A DNA stretch of 64,000 nucleotides, taken from contig JACPKQ010000003.1 in NCBI GenBank assembly GCA_016186995.1, positions 14,160-78,159 of the forward strand, in the 5' to 3' direction. Within the stretch, counting starts at the first letter, position 1, and the number at the start of each line of letters is the position of its first letter. Source of the stretch: Deltaproteobacteria bacterium. Lineage in GTDB: Bacteria; Bdellovibrionota; JACOXK01. Positions 40,313-46,832 of the stretch are shown piece after piece. The notes under the pieces are model-generated. The model ran no database searches. It was not told where the DNA came from and saw only the letters and a list, made by a program, of their open reading frames with translations. The position numbers and the translations under genes were made by a program.

Positions 40313-40397
40313 GCCGGGGTGGCGGAACTGGCAGACGCGCATGACTTAGGATCATGTGGGTTATCCCGTGAAGGTTCAAGTCCTTTCCCCGGCACCA
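40313..40397 (+). tRNA. tRNA-Leu (anticodon TAG), integration target
   Basis: The acceptor stem GCCGGGG pairs with CCCCGGC, the anticodon stem CATGA/TCATG encloses CTTAGGA (anticodon TAG), and a long variable arm and the TTCAAGT T-loop mark a class II leucine tRNA. CCA is encoded here, unlike in the other two tRNAs of the window. The last 23 bases of the gene body (40372-40394) recur at 40580 and 45373, so the gene is the attachment site of two elements. Confidence 0.94.
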
Positions 40398-40602
40398 CTT
40401 CCGCGTTTTAAATTCACCTAGTTCTTCCTCATATTTAAACAAACATCCCATACCGCCTTCTCTAGGTTCGATCTTCGCCTTTCAGGCTCGTTCTCACGAA
40501 GAGAAGGTCTCCAGCTGCTATTCTAAAATTCAGATGCTCTTATTCATCGCATCTTCATTAAGAATAGCTACGCTTCCGTAGGTTCAAGTCCTTTCCCCGG
40601 CA
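40372..40602. mobile_element. Small non-coding integrated element (~208 bp)
   Basis: It is bounded by the tRNA-derived core at 40372-40394 and the copy at 40580-40602. Its left 35 bases (40395-40429) are identical to the left end of the large element (40603-40637). Its right 62 bases (40518-40579) match the right end of the large element (45311-45372) with one mismatch. Between the ends are only ~88 bases with an imperfect hairpin (CCTTCTCT...AGAGAAGG). No coding frame is present. It looks like an internally deleted derivative of the large element. Confidence 0.75.
40518..40602 (+). repeat. 85-bp direct repeat, copy 1 (right end + core)
   Basis: It matches 45311-45395 with a single mismatch (C40553 against T45346). 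It starts with a two-step hairpin: outer arms GCTATTCT (40517-40524) and AGAATAGC (40561-40568), inner arms AGATGC (40532-40537) and GCATCT (40549-40554). It ends in the 23-bp tRNA core. Confidence 0.9.
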
Positions 40603-40621
40603 CCACTTCCGCGTTTTAAAT

Positions 40622-40990
40622 TCACCTAGTTCTTCCTGAAGTTTGAGATTTTTGGGCATCGCTATTATAAAGAGCAATCAAGCGATTTTTTTCTCTGTTA
40701 AAACGATCGATTAAATCGTTTTCTGTTATGCCTTCAAATGTAACTTGGTTTAGATCAATACCTGTATGATATAATTCAATAAGTAGCCCGGAAACAAATG
40801 ACTGGGTGAAGGATCGAACGCCTTTGAAATCTAAATGTGTCACCTGATTCTATTCTCAAATAACCCGTATTTTTTTTAATAAACTGCCAGACTTCATTTA
40901 ATCCGATCCCTCTCTCACCTCTGCCTGGTTCAGGATTGAGTGCGCTTTTCTGAAGCTGGGTTTCGGTCAGAATAATTTTGTCCTCAGCTA
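40622..40990 (-). pseudogene. Remnant of HATPase + STAS-like (DUF4325-type) gene
   Basis: Two pieces in different frames are visible on the minus strand. The first (40980 to ~40840) reads ALNPEPGRGERGIGLNEVWQ and IKKNTGYLRIESGD, which resembles the G2 end of a histidine-kinase-type ATPase domain. The second (GTG 40843 to 40622) reads HLDFKGVRSFTQSFVSGLL and resembles the C-terminal half of a DUF4325 STAS-like domain. The two domains are often joined in one protein. Here the junction and the N terminus are lost, so the gene is broken. A stretch with higher GC (41000-41160) next to it has no supported gene. Confidence 0.4.
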
Positions 40991-41175
40991 TCTTTTTTAA
41001 GGAAAAGAAAACTTTTATGCGGGGCTCTGCTCTGGCGAGCAGTGAGGCGGGCAGCCTTCATTTTTACGCTTGGACGGGCGGATTTTTTGGCGGCAGTTTC
41101 TATTTTTCTTGCCCTTGCCCCACCACCCCCGTGCGCGGACAAGATTAAAGAACTCCCTAAAATCAATAAATCAAT

Positions 41176-41208
41176 ATGCTAACTATAGTATGTAGCATCA
41201 AAGTTAGC
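41176..41208. promoter_or_regulatory. Candidate operator for the control protein
   Basis: Nested palindromes lie directly before the control gene: ATGCT...AGCAT (41176-41198), the central ACTATAGT (41182-41189), and GCTAAC...GTTAGC (41178-41208). Control proteins of restriction-modification systems are known to bind such paired boxes just upstream of their own gene. Confidence 0.5.
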
Positions 41209-41210
41209 AA

Positions 41211-41453
41211 GTGGATATACTTCAGTTATCAATTATGAAAAGAGAAATCCTTATCAGATTTGGTCAAAAAGTCCGAGAAGAGCGTACAAGGTTAGGTTTG
41301 TCTCAAGAAGAACTAGCTGTACGCGCTGGTGTTCACCGGACTTATATCGGCATGATTGAGCGCGCAGAAAAAAATATCACACTCGAAAATATCGAAAAAA
41401 TCGCCAAAGCTCTTGAAATCTCGCTCGATAAGCTAATGAGCTTGGAAAAGTAA
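41211..41453 (+). CDS. XRE-type restriction-modification control protein
   Basis: This 80-residue (GTG 41211) or 72-residue (ATG 41235) protein is a single HTH: FGQKVREERTRLGLSQEELAVRAGVHRTYIGMIERAEKN, then ITLENIEKIAKALEISLDKL. Its size and the AGVHRTYIGMIERAEKNIT block are typical of C proteins, which delay endonuclease expression after entry to a new host. The endonuclease starts four bases after its stop. Neither start has a clear Shine-Dalgarno, as is common for leaderless C genes. Confidence 0.85.
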   Translation: MDILQLSIMKREILIRFGQKVREERTRLGLSQEELAVRAGVHRTYIGMIERAEKNITLENIEKIAKALEISLDKLMSLEK

Positions 41454-41457
41454 ATCT

Positions 41458-42054
41458 ATGGGAACAAATGAATTAAGAAAAAGAAAAATTTGGCAAGATT
41501 CCAGCGGAAGAAAAGCAGGAGTCGCAGAAAAAAAATTTTACGAAATATTGTCGAAAGAGTTTAAAGGCTCGAACTTTAGAGTGCGCTCAAAGCCAAAAGA
41601 ATTTAAAAATATCTACTCTAAAATAAAACTCAGTGATGAAGTTTTAGCAAATATTTATAACCCAGATGAAACATGGATACATGGAGTAATTCCAGATTTC
41701 GCTATAGATAATCTCAAAACTAATAAAACACTATACGTAGAAGTCAAAAGGCAGGATGGGTGGGTAGAAGGAAAACCCCGTAAGGCGGGTAGAGGAAATG
41801 CGCATGAGAGATCATGTAAGTTCTTCACGCCAGGATTACTAAAAATACTGAGAGAACACGGGAAGCTTGGTAACGATGTTTTACCATTTTGGATTGTCTT
41901 TCAAGGTGATATTGCACGTGATCCAAAACGTGTAAGAGAAATACATTGCTGGTACACTGGGTATTCTGCCAACTTTTTTTTGTGGAGTAATTCAGCAGAT
42001 CACAAATCTCTAGTTAATCATTTTAATAAGAAACTAAAAAATCTGTTAACTTAA
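41458..42054 (+). CDS. MunI-like type II restriction endonuclease
   Basis: The 198-residue protein has a PD-(D/E)XK active site: PDFAIDNL (Asp near residue 81) followed by LYVEVKRQDG with E and K. The segment GRGNAHERSC corresponds to the recognition-region motif shared by MunI and, more distantly, EcoRI (GNAIERSH). Length and motif order agree with MunI, whose known target is CAATTG. That target is only a prediction here, and CAATTG does occur in the window. It is coupled to the control gene, and its last nine bases overlap the convergent methyltransferase. Confidence 0.82.
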   Translation: MGTNELRKRKIWQDSSGRKAGVAEKKFYEILSKEFKGSNFRVRSKPKEFKNIYSKIKLSDEVLANIYNPDETWIHGVIPDFAIDNLKTNKTLYVEVKRQDGWVEGKPRKAGRGNAHERSCKFFTPGLLKILREHGKLGNDVLPFWIVFQGDIARDPKRVREIHCWYTGYSANFFLWSNSADHKSLVNHFNKKLKNLLT

Positions 42055-42786
42055 GAAGCATTCATTACTTTTCTTAAGCATATCTAATCCCCACGCTGAC
42101 CAACCCTTGATCTTTCTTCTTGCGAATAATTCAATGCGTTCCTGAGTTGGAAACATTTTTTCTATTGCTTGAATTACTTCTATTGGCTTCTCACTATGTT
42201 TTTTTCTTGGGCTTCGCACTAATTGTTGTATATTTCTTGCGCCTCTTGGTTTTGGTATTCTGCCTCGCTTGAACACCAAACATAACTCACAATTTGAAAG
42301 AGTATATTGCCCGGGATTATGGTTCATTTTGTCCCAAACAAATGCGACTGTTTTGTATTCAAATCCCCATGCTTCGCCCAACTCTATGGCTTGGGCTAAA
42401 TGCGGATTTGATGTCCACATGAACAAAAGGCAATCATCTTTTGCAATTTCGTGAACGGGAATCTTCATCAATTCACTAGTTTTTAATGTTGGGTACTTAA
42501 ACGTAGCCGAACTTATGAATATTTTTCTTGAGAAATCAATACTCTCTTTACTTTTGCTGCTTTTATCGAATTGCAATTTCCCATTATAGTACCAAGGTGG
42601 ATCAGCATAAATTACATTAAATTTTTTATTTGGTAATTTAGGATAAAGACTCGACAATGTATTTTGCTTTGTTCGCTTCGTGGCGTCCTCATTATAAATC
42701 GAATACCCAGTTCGTTTATTCGATAAACCGACTTCAGTTTGTGGTTGAGATTTAGCCATAGTCATTGATAACTTTGGTATACGCAA
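42046..42786 (-). CDS. MT-A70-type adenine DNA methyltransferase (M.MunI-like)
   Basis: The catalytic motif IV is DPPW in NVIYADPPWYYNGK. The motif-X/I-side segments are CLLFMWTSNPHLAQAIEL and the C-terminal block KKHSEKPIEVIQAIEKMF with ERIELFARRKIKGWSAWG, which is typical of the MT-A70 N6-adenine family that includes M.MunI. It is convergent with the endonuclease. Starts at 42786, 42765 or 42759 are all possible. I kept the longest (246 aa). The product would protect the host from the adjacent endonuclease. Confidence 0.85.
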   Translation of the reverse strand: MRIPKLSMTMAKSQPQTEVGLSNKRTGYSIYNEDATKRTKQNTLSSLYPKLPNKKFNVIYADPPWYYNGKLQFDKSSKSKESIDFSRKIFISSATFKYPTLKTSELMKIPVHEIAKDDCLLFMWTSNPHLAQAIELGEAWGFEYKTVAFVWDKMNHNPGQYTLSNCELCLVFKRGRIPKPRGARNIQQLVRSPRKKHSEKPIEVIQAIEKMFPTQERIELFARRKIKGWSAWGLDMLKKSNECFLS

Positions 42787-42896
42787 AGTTTTTTATTCAA
42801 GCAAGCTAAATTTTCTCAATACGACGCAACTTAAAATGTGGTTTGTGTTCACATTTCGATCAAGAAAAACTCCAAAATTCCGAAAAGAAGAGAAGG

Positions 42897-44405
42897 ATGA
42901 AAAACCTCACAAAAACCAAATATGTGAAAGGTGTGCGGTGCTTAAAGGCACTGTATTTGAACGTTTATCAGCCTGAGCTTGGAAAAGAGCCTGATGAATC
43001 TCAAAAAATGATTATGGCGCAAGGACAAGCGGTGGGAGAGTTTGCAAAAAAAGAATTTAAAGGTGGGGTTGATATTTCAAAGTCGGATGGAAAGTTTGAT
43101 GAACAGGTTCGCTTGACGAAAGAGGCTTTGAAAAAAGATGTACCCGCTATTTTTGAAGCTACTTTTTTGCATGAGGGTGTGCTTTGTAAAGTGGATATTT
43201 TGGAAAGAACAAAAAAGGGCTGGAATTTAATTGAGGTGAAATCTTCGACCAAAGTTACTGAAGAGCATATTCATGATGTAGCCGTTCAGTATGCTGTTTT
43301 AAAAGGGGCTGGGATTCAGGTTGAGCGCGCATATTTGATGCTTGTCAATACAGCGTGTATTTATCCTGATTTATCCAATTTTTTTAAAAAAGAAGATGTC
43401 ACAAAAGAAGTTGAAATGAAACTTTCCGAAGTTAAAGGGAATCTCAAAAAACAATTTGATGTTTTAAAATCTAAGCGTGAGCCCAAAATTGATATTGGGG
43501 AGTATTGCTTAAAATTTCCTGGGAATAAAAAGCCACGCGCGTGCGAATTTAAAGAACATTGTTGGAAGCATATCAAAGAAAATTCTGTGTTTGAACTTTA
43601 TCGTCTTAAAAAAGAAAAACAGTTTGATTTGTACACTTCTGGCGTGCTTCAGATTAAGGCTTTACCCAAGGGGTATAAGTTAAATGCCATGCAGGAAAGA
43701 CAAGTTGAGGCTGTTTTCTCCAAAGCGCCTTATATGGATAAAGCTGGAATCGGGGATTTTCTAAGTCAAATTGAATATCCCGTGCATTATTTAGATTTTG
43801 AAACTGCAAATCCAGCCATTCCCAGGTTTAAGGGCATACACCCATACGAGCATATCCCTTTTCAGTTTAGTTGTTTTGTGCGTGAGGAAAATGGAAATCT
43901 TTTATATCGGGAATTTCTACAACTTGGAACAAACGACCCCCGTGAGGCACTTTTGAAAGCACTTTTAGAGGGTATTCAAAATCGAGGATCAATCTTTGTT
44001 TATAATGCCGTGTTTGAAAAAAGAATTTTAAAAAGTTTGGCAAAATCGTTTCCAAAGTATGAAAAAAAGATAAATGGGATTATTGAACGTATTGTAGACA
44101 TGATGGATATTTTTTTGAACTATTATTATCATCCAGATTTTCATGGCTCCCTAAGCTTAAAAAAAATCGTGCCTGTTCTTGCCCCCTCTCTTTCATACGA
44201 AGGCATGGAAATTGCTGAAGGAGGATCAGCCAGCGCTGCTTATATGCGAACGCTCACAGAAGACCTCTCCGAAATCGAAATCAGCGCGATTGAAAAGAAT
44301 TTACGTGAATATTGTAAGAAAGACACGCAAGTCATGGTAGAAATCCACGACTTTTTTTTAAATCTTTTGTCAGATAAAAAGCAGAAAAAACAATGTCTAA
44401 AATAA
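42897..44405 (+). CDS. DUF2779 nuclease-like protein
   Basis: I chose ATG 42897 after AGAGAAGG (502 aa). The N-terminal half resembles Cas4/RecB-type PD-(D/E)XK nucleases: FEATFLHEGVLCKVDILE, then the core LIEVKSSTKV and, later, Cys residues (YCLKFPG, RACEFKEHCW) that could hold an Fe-S cluster. The C-terminal DUF2779 half looks like an RNase-H-fold exonuclease: HYLDFETANPAIPRF, VYNAVFEKRILKSL and YCKKDTQVMVEIHD carry the spaced acidic residues. The function is not known. Position next to a restriction system suggests nucleic-acid defence or repair. It overlaps the HAD gene by 13 bases. Confidence 0.8.
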   Translation: MKNLTKTKYVKGVRCLKALYLNVYQPELGKEPDESQKMIMAQGQAVGEFAKKEFKGGVDISKSDGKFDEQVRLTKEALKKDVPAIFEATFLHEGVLCKVDILERTKKGWNLIEVKSSTKVTEEHIHDVAVQYAVLKGAGIQVERAYLMLVNTACIYPDLSNFFKKEDVTKEVEMKLSEVKGNLKKQFDVLKSKREPKIDIGEYCLKFPGNKKPRACEFKEHCWKHIKENSVFELYRLKKEKQFDLYTSGVLQIKALPKGYKLNAMQERQVEAVFSKAPYMDKAGIGDFLSQIEYPVHYLDFETANPAIPRFKGIHPYEHIPFQFSCFVREENGNLLYREFLQLGTNDPREALLKALLEGIQNRGSIFVYNAVFEKRILKSLAKSFPKYEKKINGIIERIVDMMDIFLNYYYHPDFHGSLSLKKIVPVLAPSLSYEGMEIAEGGSASAAYMRTLTEDLSEIEISAIEKNLREYCKKDTQVMVEIHDFFLNLLSDKKQKKQCLK

Positions 44406-45052
44406 AAGGAATCCTCTTTGATCTCGACAATACGCTCATTGATTTTATGAAAATGAAGCGGATGGCCTGTTCTGAAGCTGCTTCTGCCATGATTGGGGCT
44501 GGGCTAAAGATGGAGTTTGAGACGCTGGAAAAAGAACTCTTTGGTTTTTATCTAAATTACGGCATCGAAGGAGATTACCCTTTCACAGATTTTTTAAAGA
44601 AACATAATGCCTACACAGATGCAATACTTGCTTCGGCCATCAATGCATATCACCGTGTGAAAAGTGCGTTTTTGGAGCCTTACCCTGGTGTGATTCCAAT
44701 GTTTGTAAAACTGATTAAACAAGGCATTAAGCTTGGCATTGTAACCGATGCGCCGTCTTTAAAAGCGCATCAACGCATTGATGCCATGAAACTGCATGGA
44801 TTTTTTGATGTCGTTGTCACAGAAGCTAAAAAGCCAGATTCACAAGGTTTTTTGAAGGCAGTTGAAAAATTTGGATTAAAACCCCAGGAAGTCATGATGG
44901 TGGGCGACTGGCCAGAAAAGGATATGGTGGGTGCAAAAAAAGCAGGTTTAATTGCATGCTTTGCAAAATATGGCCACTCTGTGGGTGTTGAAACAGCTAC
45001 AGAACCAGATCATACGATCCATAAGATCGAAGAGCTATTAGAAATTTTATAA
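44393..45052 (+). CDS. HAD-superfamily hydrolase
   Basis: The three HAD motifs are present: I, FDLDNTLIDF (nucleophile and acid Asp); II, LGIVTDAPS (Ser/Thr position with TDA); III, KKPDSQGF and MMVGDWPEKDMVGAKKAG with the Lys and terminal Asp pair. The cap is helical and inserted after motif I, so it is subfamily I. The length is 219 aa. It overlaps the DUF2779 gene by 13 bases and is likely coupled. The substrate, probably a small phosphorylated metabolite or nucleotide, cannot be told from sequence. Confidence 0.85.
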   Translation: MSKIKGILFDLDNTLIDFMKMKRMACSEAASAMIGAGLKMEFETLEKELFGFYLNYGIEGDYPFTDFLKKHNAYTDAILASAINAYHRVKSAFLEPYPGVIPMFVKLIKQGIKLGIVTDAPSLKAHQRIDAMKLHGFFDVVVTEAKKPDSQGFLKAVEKFGLKPQEVMMVGDWPEKDMVGAKKAGLIACFAKYGHSVGVETATEPDHTIHKIEELLEIL

Positions 45053-45091
45053 GTCTTGTCTTCGTTTCTGAGAAGATGAAAGATTTTATTT

Positions 45092-45244
45092 ATGATCGTG
45101 AAACGCGGAAATAAATACGTTTTGTATTCCAGAAGCAAAAGGAAGGGCAAGCGGCGACGCTTAGGTGTTTTTAAAACCAGAGAAGCTGCTTTAAAACGAG
45201 AGCGACAAATTCAATATTTTAAGCATTTGAAAAAGAACAATTAA
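45092..45244 (+). CDS. Small basic protein (50 aa), element-borne
   Basis: This 50-residue frame starts MIVKRGNKYVLYSRSKRK and ends in KHLKKNN. It is rich in Lys and Arg and contains GVFKTREAALKRERQIQYF. The form 'K-YVLYS...G.f.T..AA..RE.qIqYFK' is familiar from small phage and genomic-island proteins of unknown role. It lies just inside the right end of the element. No clear Shine-Dalgarno is seen. Confidence 0.55.
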   Translation: MIVKRGNKYVLYSRSKRKGKRRRLGVFKTREAALKRERQIQYFKHLKKNN

Positions 45245-45310
45245 ATTTTATTTATTCTTTTTTGAGCGGTATAATTCTGTCATGCGTTTGTGGCACTCGT
45301 AATCGCCACA

Positions 45311-45395
45311 CTATTCTAAAATTCAGATGCTCTTATTCATCGCATTTTCATTAAGAATAGCTACGCTTCCGTAGGTTCAAGTCCTTTCCCCGGCA
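45311..45395 (+). repeat. 85-bp direct repeat, copy 2 (right end + core)
   Basis: This is the second copy of the sequence at 40518-40602. The outer hairpin arms are kept (CTATTCT and AGAATAG), and one inner arm carries the single mismatch, which still allows a G-T pair. It ends at the core A45395, after which chromosomal sequence (TCATTTTTATGG) follows. This marks the right border of the large element. Confidence 0.9.
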
Positions 45396-45401
45396 TCATT
45401 T

Positions 45402-46832
45402 TTATGGTTTCCAGATGTTGTCTTCATCCCCATTGACACCCATAAGGTAGATAAGATCTTCCTCTTCTTCAAAGTTAGATTGAGTGAGGTTTTGGAGTAT
45501 TTTTTGGTAAGAACGTGTTTTTCCTTCTAAGAAATAATCGAGAAAAGCAAAAGTATTAGGAACTGAAGTAGTGCTATATGTTGGAAGCCCTGATGTAATA
45601 ATTTCTAAATTGTGAGTTCCCCCTTTTTTTGTAAAAAATTGTCCTTTGAAATAAGGATAGGTGCTACATCCGTTAAAAAAGTAAATTTGGTATTTGTCTT
45701 TATTAAATTGAATATCTTGAAAATCACGAGAGGTGAGATCAAGGTTACCCCCTAATCCTGAATGGCCATCATAAAGAATAATATCTGCATTTTCAAAAGC
45801 AGGTTTGACGTAATAGTGAAAAGTATAATCTTTAGATTCAATAGAGGTATCTGTAAGAAGAATTTGTATTCTTATGTTTAAAGGTGTTTTAAGTTTGGAA
45901 GTGCTAGTTTTTTCTAACTGAGTTAAAAAATTAAGCCCTTGAGCAAAACTATTTTTTCCATCTCGGTTGCCATCTCTGTAAACGCGAAATAATTCTTTTT
46001 CAACAATTTTTTTAAACCCTCTTGATTGAAGTTCCTTAATGATTGTTCGATAGGCTTTATAAGCATCATCTTTTTTTCTACGTTTGACCCTTTTTGAATT
46101 TTCAAAATTGTGAACATCCACATCATCCATGTATCCAAAGAAAAGTGCTATATCGAGTGTTTCCCCGTTTCCATTATCACTATAAAGTTTGTCATATTCT
46201 GGGTAAGAAAGTTTTGTGCTTTTTTTTCTCTTAAGCCTTCCTTGTGTGCGAACAACATTGATGTTGTCTTTTTTAAGCCGACATTGTGGTAAATCTGGGT
46301 CCCAAAAATACCAGAAATCTTCTTTTGAATTATACTCTCTATCCGTGCAAGGATTGAACTTTTTAGAAAAACTGAGGTCATAAATTTTATCAGGTTCAAG
46401 GGGAAGTTTAATAGGAACTTTTCTTATAGCTCTCTTATAACTTTTGCCTCCAAAAGCTTCTTTGTCGAAAACAACAGTTCCTTCAAAATCATAGTGAATT
46501 TTTTTACGTTGTGGATCACTCGTGTTTTCTATTTTTTTAAAAGTGACTTTATAGTGATGATTTTCTCCTAAAACACCCTTATAACCAAATTCTTTGTAAA
46601 ATGATTCAGATTGAAACGCACCTACAAGGTAATCGAGTTGTTGTTCAATAATGGGAAGTGTTTCATGTCGATCGCCTTCGTTAAGTTTTAAAAAATTAAT
46701 ATCGCTTGCAAGCGCTTCAAGAACTGTACTAAAAGTAAGAGTTGCCTCTGTTGATCGCAATCCATAATAACTATGTGACAAAAAGGGAATCAAGCAAAGA
46801 ATGAAGATACCTATGCGAAACATATACTTCAT
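45402..46832 (-). CDS. Secreted caspase/gingipain-like protein
   Basis: A signal peptide (residues 1-22, MFRIGIFILCLIPFLSHSYY) points to export. The N-terminal half has beta-rich segments and several conserved Cys. The C-terminal part resembles the caspase fold: a beta strand leading to ADIILYDGHSGLGG with His357, then YQIYFFNGCSTYPYF with Cys389, followed by ITSGLPTYS. This His-then-Cys order at strand ends is the clan CD dyad seen in caspases, gingipain-like and clostripain-like peptidases. The target is unknown. It lies just outside the integrated element, and its stop is seven bases from the border. Confidence 0.75.
   Translation of the reverse strand: MKYMFRIGIFILCLIPFLSHSYYGLRSTEATLTFSTVLEALASDINFLKLNEGDRHETLPIIEQQLDYLVGAFQSESFYKEFGYKGVLGENHHYKVTFKKIENTSDPQRKKIHYDFEGTVVFDKEAFGGKSYKRAIRKVPIKLPLEPDKIYDLSFSKKFNPCTDREYNSKEDFWYFWDPDLPQCRLKKDNINVVRTQGRLKRKKSTKLSYPEYDKLYSDNGNGETLDIALFFGYMDDVDVHNFENSKRVKRRKKDDAYKAYRTIIKELQSRGFKKIVEKELFRVYRDGNRDGKNSFAQGLNFLTQLEKTSTSKLKTPLNIRIQILLTDTSIESKDYTFHYYVKPAFENADIILYDGHSGLGGNLDLTSRDFQDIQFNKDKYQIYFFNGCSTYPYFKGQFFTKKGGTHNLEIITSGLPTYSTTSVPNTFAFLDYFLEGKTRSYQKILQNLTQSNFEEEEDLIYLMGVNGDEDNIWKP

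Follow-up and report, generated by a model that had tools for sequence, protein, structure and literature searches.

A family of hairpin-rich elements that adjoin many tRNA genes includes a two-unit array at tRNA-Leu(TAG)

The window analyzed in this work (a 64,000-nt stretch of contig JACPKQ010000003.1 from a Deltaproteobacteria bacterium) contains an intact tRNA-Leu(TAG) gene that is followed by two units in series, E1 and E2, each bounded by copies of the 3' end of the tRNA. An earlier note on this DNA had described the two units; the finding is real and larger than first noted, that is, E1 belongs to a family of structured elements (type A) that is dispersed over many tRNA genes in the host genome (G000; 1.68 Mb, 30 contigs, 93% complete) and in a second genus of the same family (the sister genus, G001). 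The explanation that we rank first, and to which we give about an even chance, is that the locus is an array of two non-autonomous integrative mini-elements that are moved in trans and insert into a specific arm of tRNA genes. The array is laid out as follows (positions in the window).

40313–40397, + strand: intact tRNA-Leu(TAG), the predicted insertion target (ARAGORN; Rfam RF00005, 55 bits).
40372–40397, + strand: core copy 1, from T-stem position 51 through the 3' CCA of the tRNA (repeat analysis).
40372–40579, + strand: small unit E1, 208 bp, a gene-free type A element (repeat analysis; dispersed repeat in the host genome).
40398–40429, + strand: shared left end of E1, an exact match to 40606–40637 (repeat analysis).
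40451–40570, + strand: covarying hairpins SL1 and SL2 of E1 (covariance model R1, 135 bits; G000:C21:54610-54729).
40518–40579, + strand: shared right end of E1, composed of SL2 and GCTTCCGT (repeat analysis).
40580–40605, + strand: core copy 2, separating E1 from E2 (repeat analysis).
40580–45372, + strand: large unit E2, 4793 bp, with E1-like ends and cargo in place of the interior (repeat analysis).
45311–45372, + strand: shared right end of E2, 61/62 identical to that of E1 (repeat analysis; covariance model, 42.6 bits, L100).
45373–45395, + strand: core copy 3, the outer boundary, with the chromosome beyond (repeat analysis).

The copies of the tRNA-Leu(TAG) 3' end start at 40372, 40580, and 45373 (spacings of 208 and 4793). 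Copies 1 and 2 are identical at 58 of 58 positions (the 23-bp core and the 35 bp that follow it), and the 62 bases upstream of copies 2 and 3 agree at 61; these matches are far beyond chance, and the sequence, ARAGORN, and the repeat analysis all bear out the three core copies and the shared 35-base left and 62-base right flanks that had been reported. Core copy 3 deviates at the 3' end of the tRNA (GGCATCA vs GGCACCA in copies 1 and 2). Core copy 2 together with both shared ends forms a complete junction of right end, core, and left end (40518–40637). E2 has no SL1. As also claimed earlier, neither unit encodes a recombinase in a Pfam profile search. The further claim that the pattern "can only be read" as two elements in series was too strong: the two units are of one family, but a tandem small copy with its middle replaced by cargo would give the same sequence.

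A whole-genome search identifies type A as a dispersed repeat in the host, and a covariance model finds 11 matches in the host (the last one weak) and 10 in G001, with no match in 189 other genomes of the phylum. With few exceptions, the host copies each have a different tRNA gene as their neighbor: they are located at the 3' ends of tRNA-Met/Ile(CAT), Arg(ACG), Ser(GCT), SeC, and Leu and, antisense to the tRNA, at the 5' ends of Phe, Ala(CGC), and Asp; some G001 copies adjoin tRNAs other than those occupied in the host. The small unit is not a deletion relic at one tRNA; it is a member of a family found at many tRNAs, at both 3' and 5' ends and in several structural types, which the earlier note had not foreseen. 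Nearly all of the type A copies that adjoin a tRNA are bordered by a repeat of the outer end (3' or 5') of that same tRNA; the repeats at 3' ends extend from T-stem position 51 to 0–7 nt beyond the tRNA, and the repeat beside the copy at tRNA-Asp is exact over only 8 bp. The right end is CTCCGT, CTTCCGT, or CTTCGT; the GCTTCCGT/CTCCGT end is kept in other copies. Two degraded G001 copies, at tRNA-Glu and tRNA-Thr, have no tRNA-end repeat, and one copy (L004), at the end of a contig, has a partial tRNA alongside. Five near-identical G001 copies (L104, L105, L106, L107, and L110) are located away from tRNA genes; they have the ends AAAACCTGCC and GGTTTTCGAATCAAAAACCGTGCC and a common T-arm-like 3' end.

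The core of type A is two long hairpins, often with a small third hairpin in front. In an alignment of 22 matches (the weakest doubtful) that was fitted to the covariance model and is, therefore, biased towards it, 92.4% of the cells are paired and 21 of the 25 pairs are changed on both sides; a free alignment of seven copies already contains 13 pairs with two-sided changes. None of 500 shuffled controls reaches the observed pairing, and sliding the partners lowers it to 40–50%. This conservation of fold with variable sequence is also characteristic of the attC recombination sites of integrons. G-T cells outnumber A-C cells 18 to 7, but the first pair alone accounts for nine of the G-T cells, and when this pair is removed by hand the counts are ∼9 and 7; because these are nearly balanced, there is no clear strand bias of the kind expected for a transcript, and the balance fits folding of DNA better than folding of a one-strand transcript, although it is only suggestive.

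The tRNA genes retrieved from three genomes (G000, G001, and G002) were surveyed. Further structured insertions with tRNA-end copies, types B–E, occur at these genes. Type B occupies 5' ends (Val, Arg, Gln, His, and Ala, all in the host), type C occupies 3' ends (Val in the host; Met, Gly, Tyr, Trp, and Ser in G001; Arg, Val, and Ser in G002), and types D and E occur in G002. An exact copy of the 3' end (at least 15 nt, 40–330 bp downstream) accompanies 5 of the 32 tRNAs in G000, 8 of 29 in G001, and 4 of 36 in G002 (17/97 in total); in the same three genomes only 3 of 3064 mismatched tRNA/flank pairs have such a copy (0/6 in a small control genome). The host tRNA-Val(CAC) (L072, G000:C12) bears an element on either side, type B at its 5' end and type C at its 3' end; the type C repeat is 77 bp in length and takes in a terminator-like hairpin.

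Occupancy differs among the three genomes. The earlier note had proposed a search for empty or differently loaded tRNA-Leu(TAG) sites, and these were found: the host gene is followed by two units, the G001 gene by one, and the G002 gene by none. The gene is located downstream of the same RND efflux gene in the host and G001 (61% amino acid identity); next to the G002 tRNA, this RND gene was not found. Similarly, at tRNA-Ser(GCT) the host has a type A element and G001 a type C element, and G002 has none. The type A core at tRNA-Asp matches that at tRNA-Ala with 95.7% identity over 141 bp, each beside the end of its own tRNA, and the stretch between tRNA and core differs between them; with these near-identical cores and the many tRNAs occupied, an element lineage is not confined to one tRNA target. 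The host also contains a second array with cargo, at tRNA-Ala(CGC) (L078, G000:C24:7097-8690), in which a tRNA and a type B element are followed by two unassigned genes, then by another full tRNA-Ala with a type A element, and, outermost, by a copy of the end of the first tRNA; the two nearly identical tRNA-Ala(CGC) genes enclose open reading frames (ORFs) of 179 and 164 aa. As comparisons of sequence, the differences in occupancy, the Asp/Ala cores, and the second array support mobility and the carriage of cargo.

The cargo of E2 is composed of the following genes.

40622–40843, − strand: 73-aa ORF with a weak DUF4325/STAS-like match (PF14213, E = 0.0012, below the cut-off), probably a fragment.
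41211–41453, + strand: controller (C) protein of a restriction-modification system, XRE/HTH_3 (PF01381, 4e-18; PADLOC Control_protein, 9e-24).
41458–42054, + strand: MunI-type restriction endonuclease (PF11407, 7e-72).
42046–42786, − strand: MT-A70 family DNA adenine methyltransferase, convergent with the nuclease (PF05063, 2e-22; MTase_II, 2e-63).
42843–44405, + strand: DUF2779 protein with a Cas4/RecB-like nuclease domain (PF11074, 1e-42; PF01930, 6.5e-5).
44393–45052, + strand: HAD-family hydrolase (PF13419, 5e-26).
45092–45244, + strand: basic 50-aa ORF with no family match (ORF list, profile searches).

By family matches, the restriction-modification module is complete (R.MunI family nuclease, methyltransferase, and controller). 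As in the MunI type II system, an R.MunI family nuclease, an MT-A70 methyltransferase, and a controller form a single module; in E2, however, the module is located inside a tRNA element. Just outside E2 (45402–46832), the window encodes a 476-aa protein with a hydrophobic, signal-peptide-like start and a weak Peptidase_C25 match.

In the explanation that we rank first, the family consists of units of ∼100–220 bp that are mostly hairpins, one of them empty at this locus (E1) and one loaded with the MunI-type system (E2). A unit would enter a tRNA gene at a fixed point in the T-arm, or at the D-arm in mirror orientation, and would then have the outer end of that tRNA repeated beside it, so the tRNA stays intact. 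The hairpins would be the recombination site, read as folded DNA; the joining enzyme would have another source, the likeliest being a visiting phage or integrative element that supplies a tyrosine-type site-specific recombinase; and DNA between two copies, e.g., the restriction-modification genes, would be carried along. The earlier note had proposed a trans-mobilized cargo family with its minimal ends preserved in the small copy; the preserved ends are observed, and trans-mobilization we infer. We rank site-specific recombination in trans first because the repeat block resembles in form the T-loop core of mycobacteriophage Ms6 (26 bp, AGGGGTTCGAATCCCCTTAGCTCCAC), in which small changes retarget integration to another tRNA (PMC1762012).

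Several observations weigh against this explanation. An ordinary integrase, whose core is fixed and suits a single tRNA, does not account for the same core at many tRNAs, in each case with the end of that particular tRNA; the length of the tRNA-end repeats (8–77 bp) is unusual for attachment cores; and no phage integrase that works through the D-arm is known to us. In the host, XerD and an apparently frameshifted XerC stand alone: we found no other tyrosine recombinase (no integron integrase, only Xer-type matches), Y1 transposase, IS110 (DEDD) transposase, or reverse transcriptase, in searches that did not include Cas1 or serine recombinases. G002, G003, and G005 each have only two tyrosine-recombinase matches, in the XerC/XerD size range. 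So any mobilizer is now absent, or is encoded by the missing 7% of the host genome, or is of a kind outside these searches. The larger, integrase-carrying relatives with the same ends that the earlier note had anticipated were sought and not found. The apparent frameshift in xerC, which is upstream of hslVU, is in the host assembly at G000:C1:10001-10427 (L085, L086). In G001, a 407-aa phage-type integrase (L250, 15142–16365, G001:C41) ends 20 bp upstream of the tRNA-Ser(GCT) that carries a 3' type C element; no type A model copy is linked to it.

Rfam has no family that matches types A–C, and neither phage records (blastn) nor IMG/VR patterns contain a member. CGGCTCCGTNGGTTCRA matches only unrelated DNA and tRNA genes, many of the latter having class II variable arms, so the motif alone is not specific; a plasmid blastn with a type C stretch gives only the short partial matches that are expected from tRNA genes. 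The possibilities of a group I intron, a ribozyme, or an omegaRNA have no Rfam support, and an intron in the tRNA transcript is excluded because the 5' copies are antisense. We found no description of such tRNA-end hairpin elements in the literature, of which our coverage is incomplete.

One alternative concerns E2 only and is compatible with either a recombinase or a target-duplicating insertion for the family: E2 itself may not be mobile, that is, it would be a tandem duplicate of E1 in which the arrival of an unrelated restriction-modification island cost the element its middle. The ends of E1 and E2 are nearly identical and other type A copies are clearly more diverged, as expected for recent duplicates; SL1 is missing from E2; and the module of controller, nuclease, and methyltransferase is found in genomes of many phyla and is, therefore, mobile cargo in its own right. 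However, tRNA-Ala(CGC) has another cargo-bearing array, and the outer ends of E2 are exactly the ends of the family. We regard this history of E2 as a real possibility, although with less than an even chance.

For the family as a whole, a target-duplicating insertion (like that of a short interspersed element, SINE, or a casposase) would join a precise right end to a nick in the tRNA arm, and repair would yield a duplication of variable length, so the tRNA copies would be derived from the target. This is a serious rival because near-identical cores bear the end of each host tRNA and the repeats range from 8 to 77 bp: the right junction is precise while the left junction varies, the repeat in Val and Tyr even covers the terminator hairpin of the tRNA, and the repeat agrees with the host tRNA at variable base 51 in each of the five type A 3' copies that were read in the host genome. 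However, the host has no reverse transcriptase, and the single such gene in G001 (L157, G001:C139, 343 aa) resembles those of diversity-generating retroelements (DGRs) or retrons by eye; no terminal inverted repeats are seen at the element ends. Also, the tRNA–hairpin segment is common to some copies and not to the Asp/Ala pair, which neither target duplication nor site-specific recombination explains simply. On balance, we give target duplication a real but clearly less than even chance.

A more speculative possibility is that the folded element picks its tRNA gene with a segment that it carries itself, complementary to the tRNA arm over ∼5–10 nt (types C and E) and matched anew with each move. 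In type C, the nucleotides with which the element's own tRNA target begins recur as their reverse complement in a segment to the left of the hairpins (e.g., AGGGATTTG at Trp, AGGACTTG at Met, and GAGGATTC at Tyr; weakest at Val), and three copies of type E have a segment complementary to the D-loop of their own tRNA. The type C complementarity is equaled by only 4 of 40320 permutations, a figure that is somewhat flattering because the compared segments were picked after the pattern was seen; with whole elements instead of chosen segments, the permutation test gives 2/720. Type A has no tRNA-complementary segment and its permutation test is negative; also, the perfecting of inverted repeats after insertion may account for part of the complementarity. 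We think such guidance doubtful; if true, a guided lineage could colonize any tRNA gene, at its 5' and 3' ends alike, and transport cargo, including a restriction-modification system, without an enzyme of its own.

Less probable still, the hairpins may be functional RNAs or terminators that are co-transcribed with tRNAs and spread by recombination, without being mobile. The covarying, conserved structure, the position beside tRNAs, and the location of type C behind a terminator-like hairpin of the tRNA would fit; however, the 5' copies are antisense, occupancy varies among relatives, there is no clear G-U strand bias, and cargo occurs between copies. Chance or simple tandem duplication, for which only the short distances speak, is refuted by the counts of true and mismatched pairs and by the dispersal of the family and has practically no claim to credence.

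tRNA genes are classic docking sites for phages and islands, normally with one integrase per tRNA; here, one clade contains many mini-elements without an enzyme, at many tRNA genes and at both of their ends, with structure conserved over sequence. If mobile, these would be minimal vehicles that load genes, in this case a defense system, next to tRNAs, and they would provide a natural setting in which to study switches of tRNA specificity. Like the Tycheposons of Prochlorococcus, they use several tRNA genes as sites and have partial tRNA copies and varied cargo; Tycheposons, however, encode their own tyrosine recombinase and are kilobases long. Like IS110 bridge-RNA elements (PMC11208160), they have consecutive hairpins and, in types C and E though not in type A, a short target-complementary segment, but the host has no DEDD transposase, the tRNA-end copies are long, and the complementarity is on one side of the junction only. 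With REPINs and miniature inverted-repeat transposable elements (MITEs) (PMC3116915), they share being short, non-coding, hairpin-rich, repeated, and helper-dependent; they differ in their tRNA specificity and long tRNA-end copies and in a host that has no Y1 transposase.

The nearest systems are tRNA-integrated islands and integron cassettes. As in Ms6-like class II (T-loop) phages and islands, the repeat block extends from the T-stem to the 3' end of the tRNA, which is intact, and a direct repeat of the tRNA 3' end is present at both boundaries; in contrast, the elements have no tyrosine integrase of their own, use one core for many tRNAs, include D-arm 5' sites, and are mostly 100–220 bp. 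Integron cassettes end in a structured attC, in which the fold rather than the sequence is conserved, form arrays, and are mobilized in trans; the structured end and the units in series are shared, but the target here is a tRNA arm, the host has no integron integrase, and the junctions, read directly, are CCGT|RGGTTC without the GTTRRRY / RYYYAAC core. Because the defining features of islands (own integrase, single tRNA) and of integron cassettes (R-box, integrase) are lacking, the family belongs to neither, although these two are its closest parallels.
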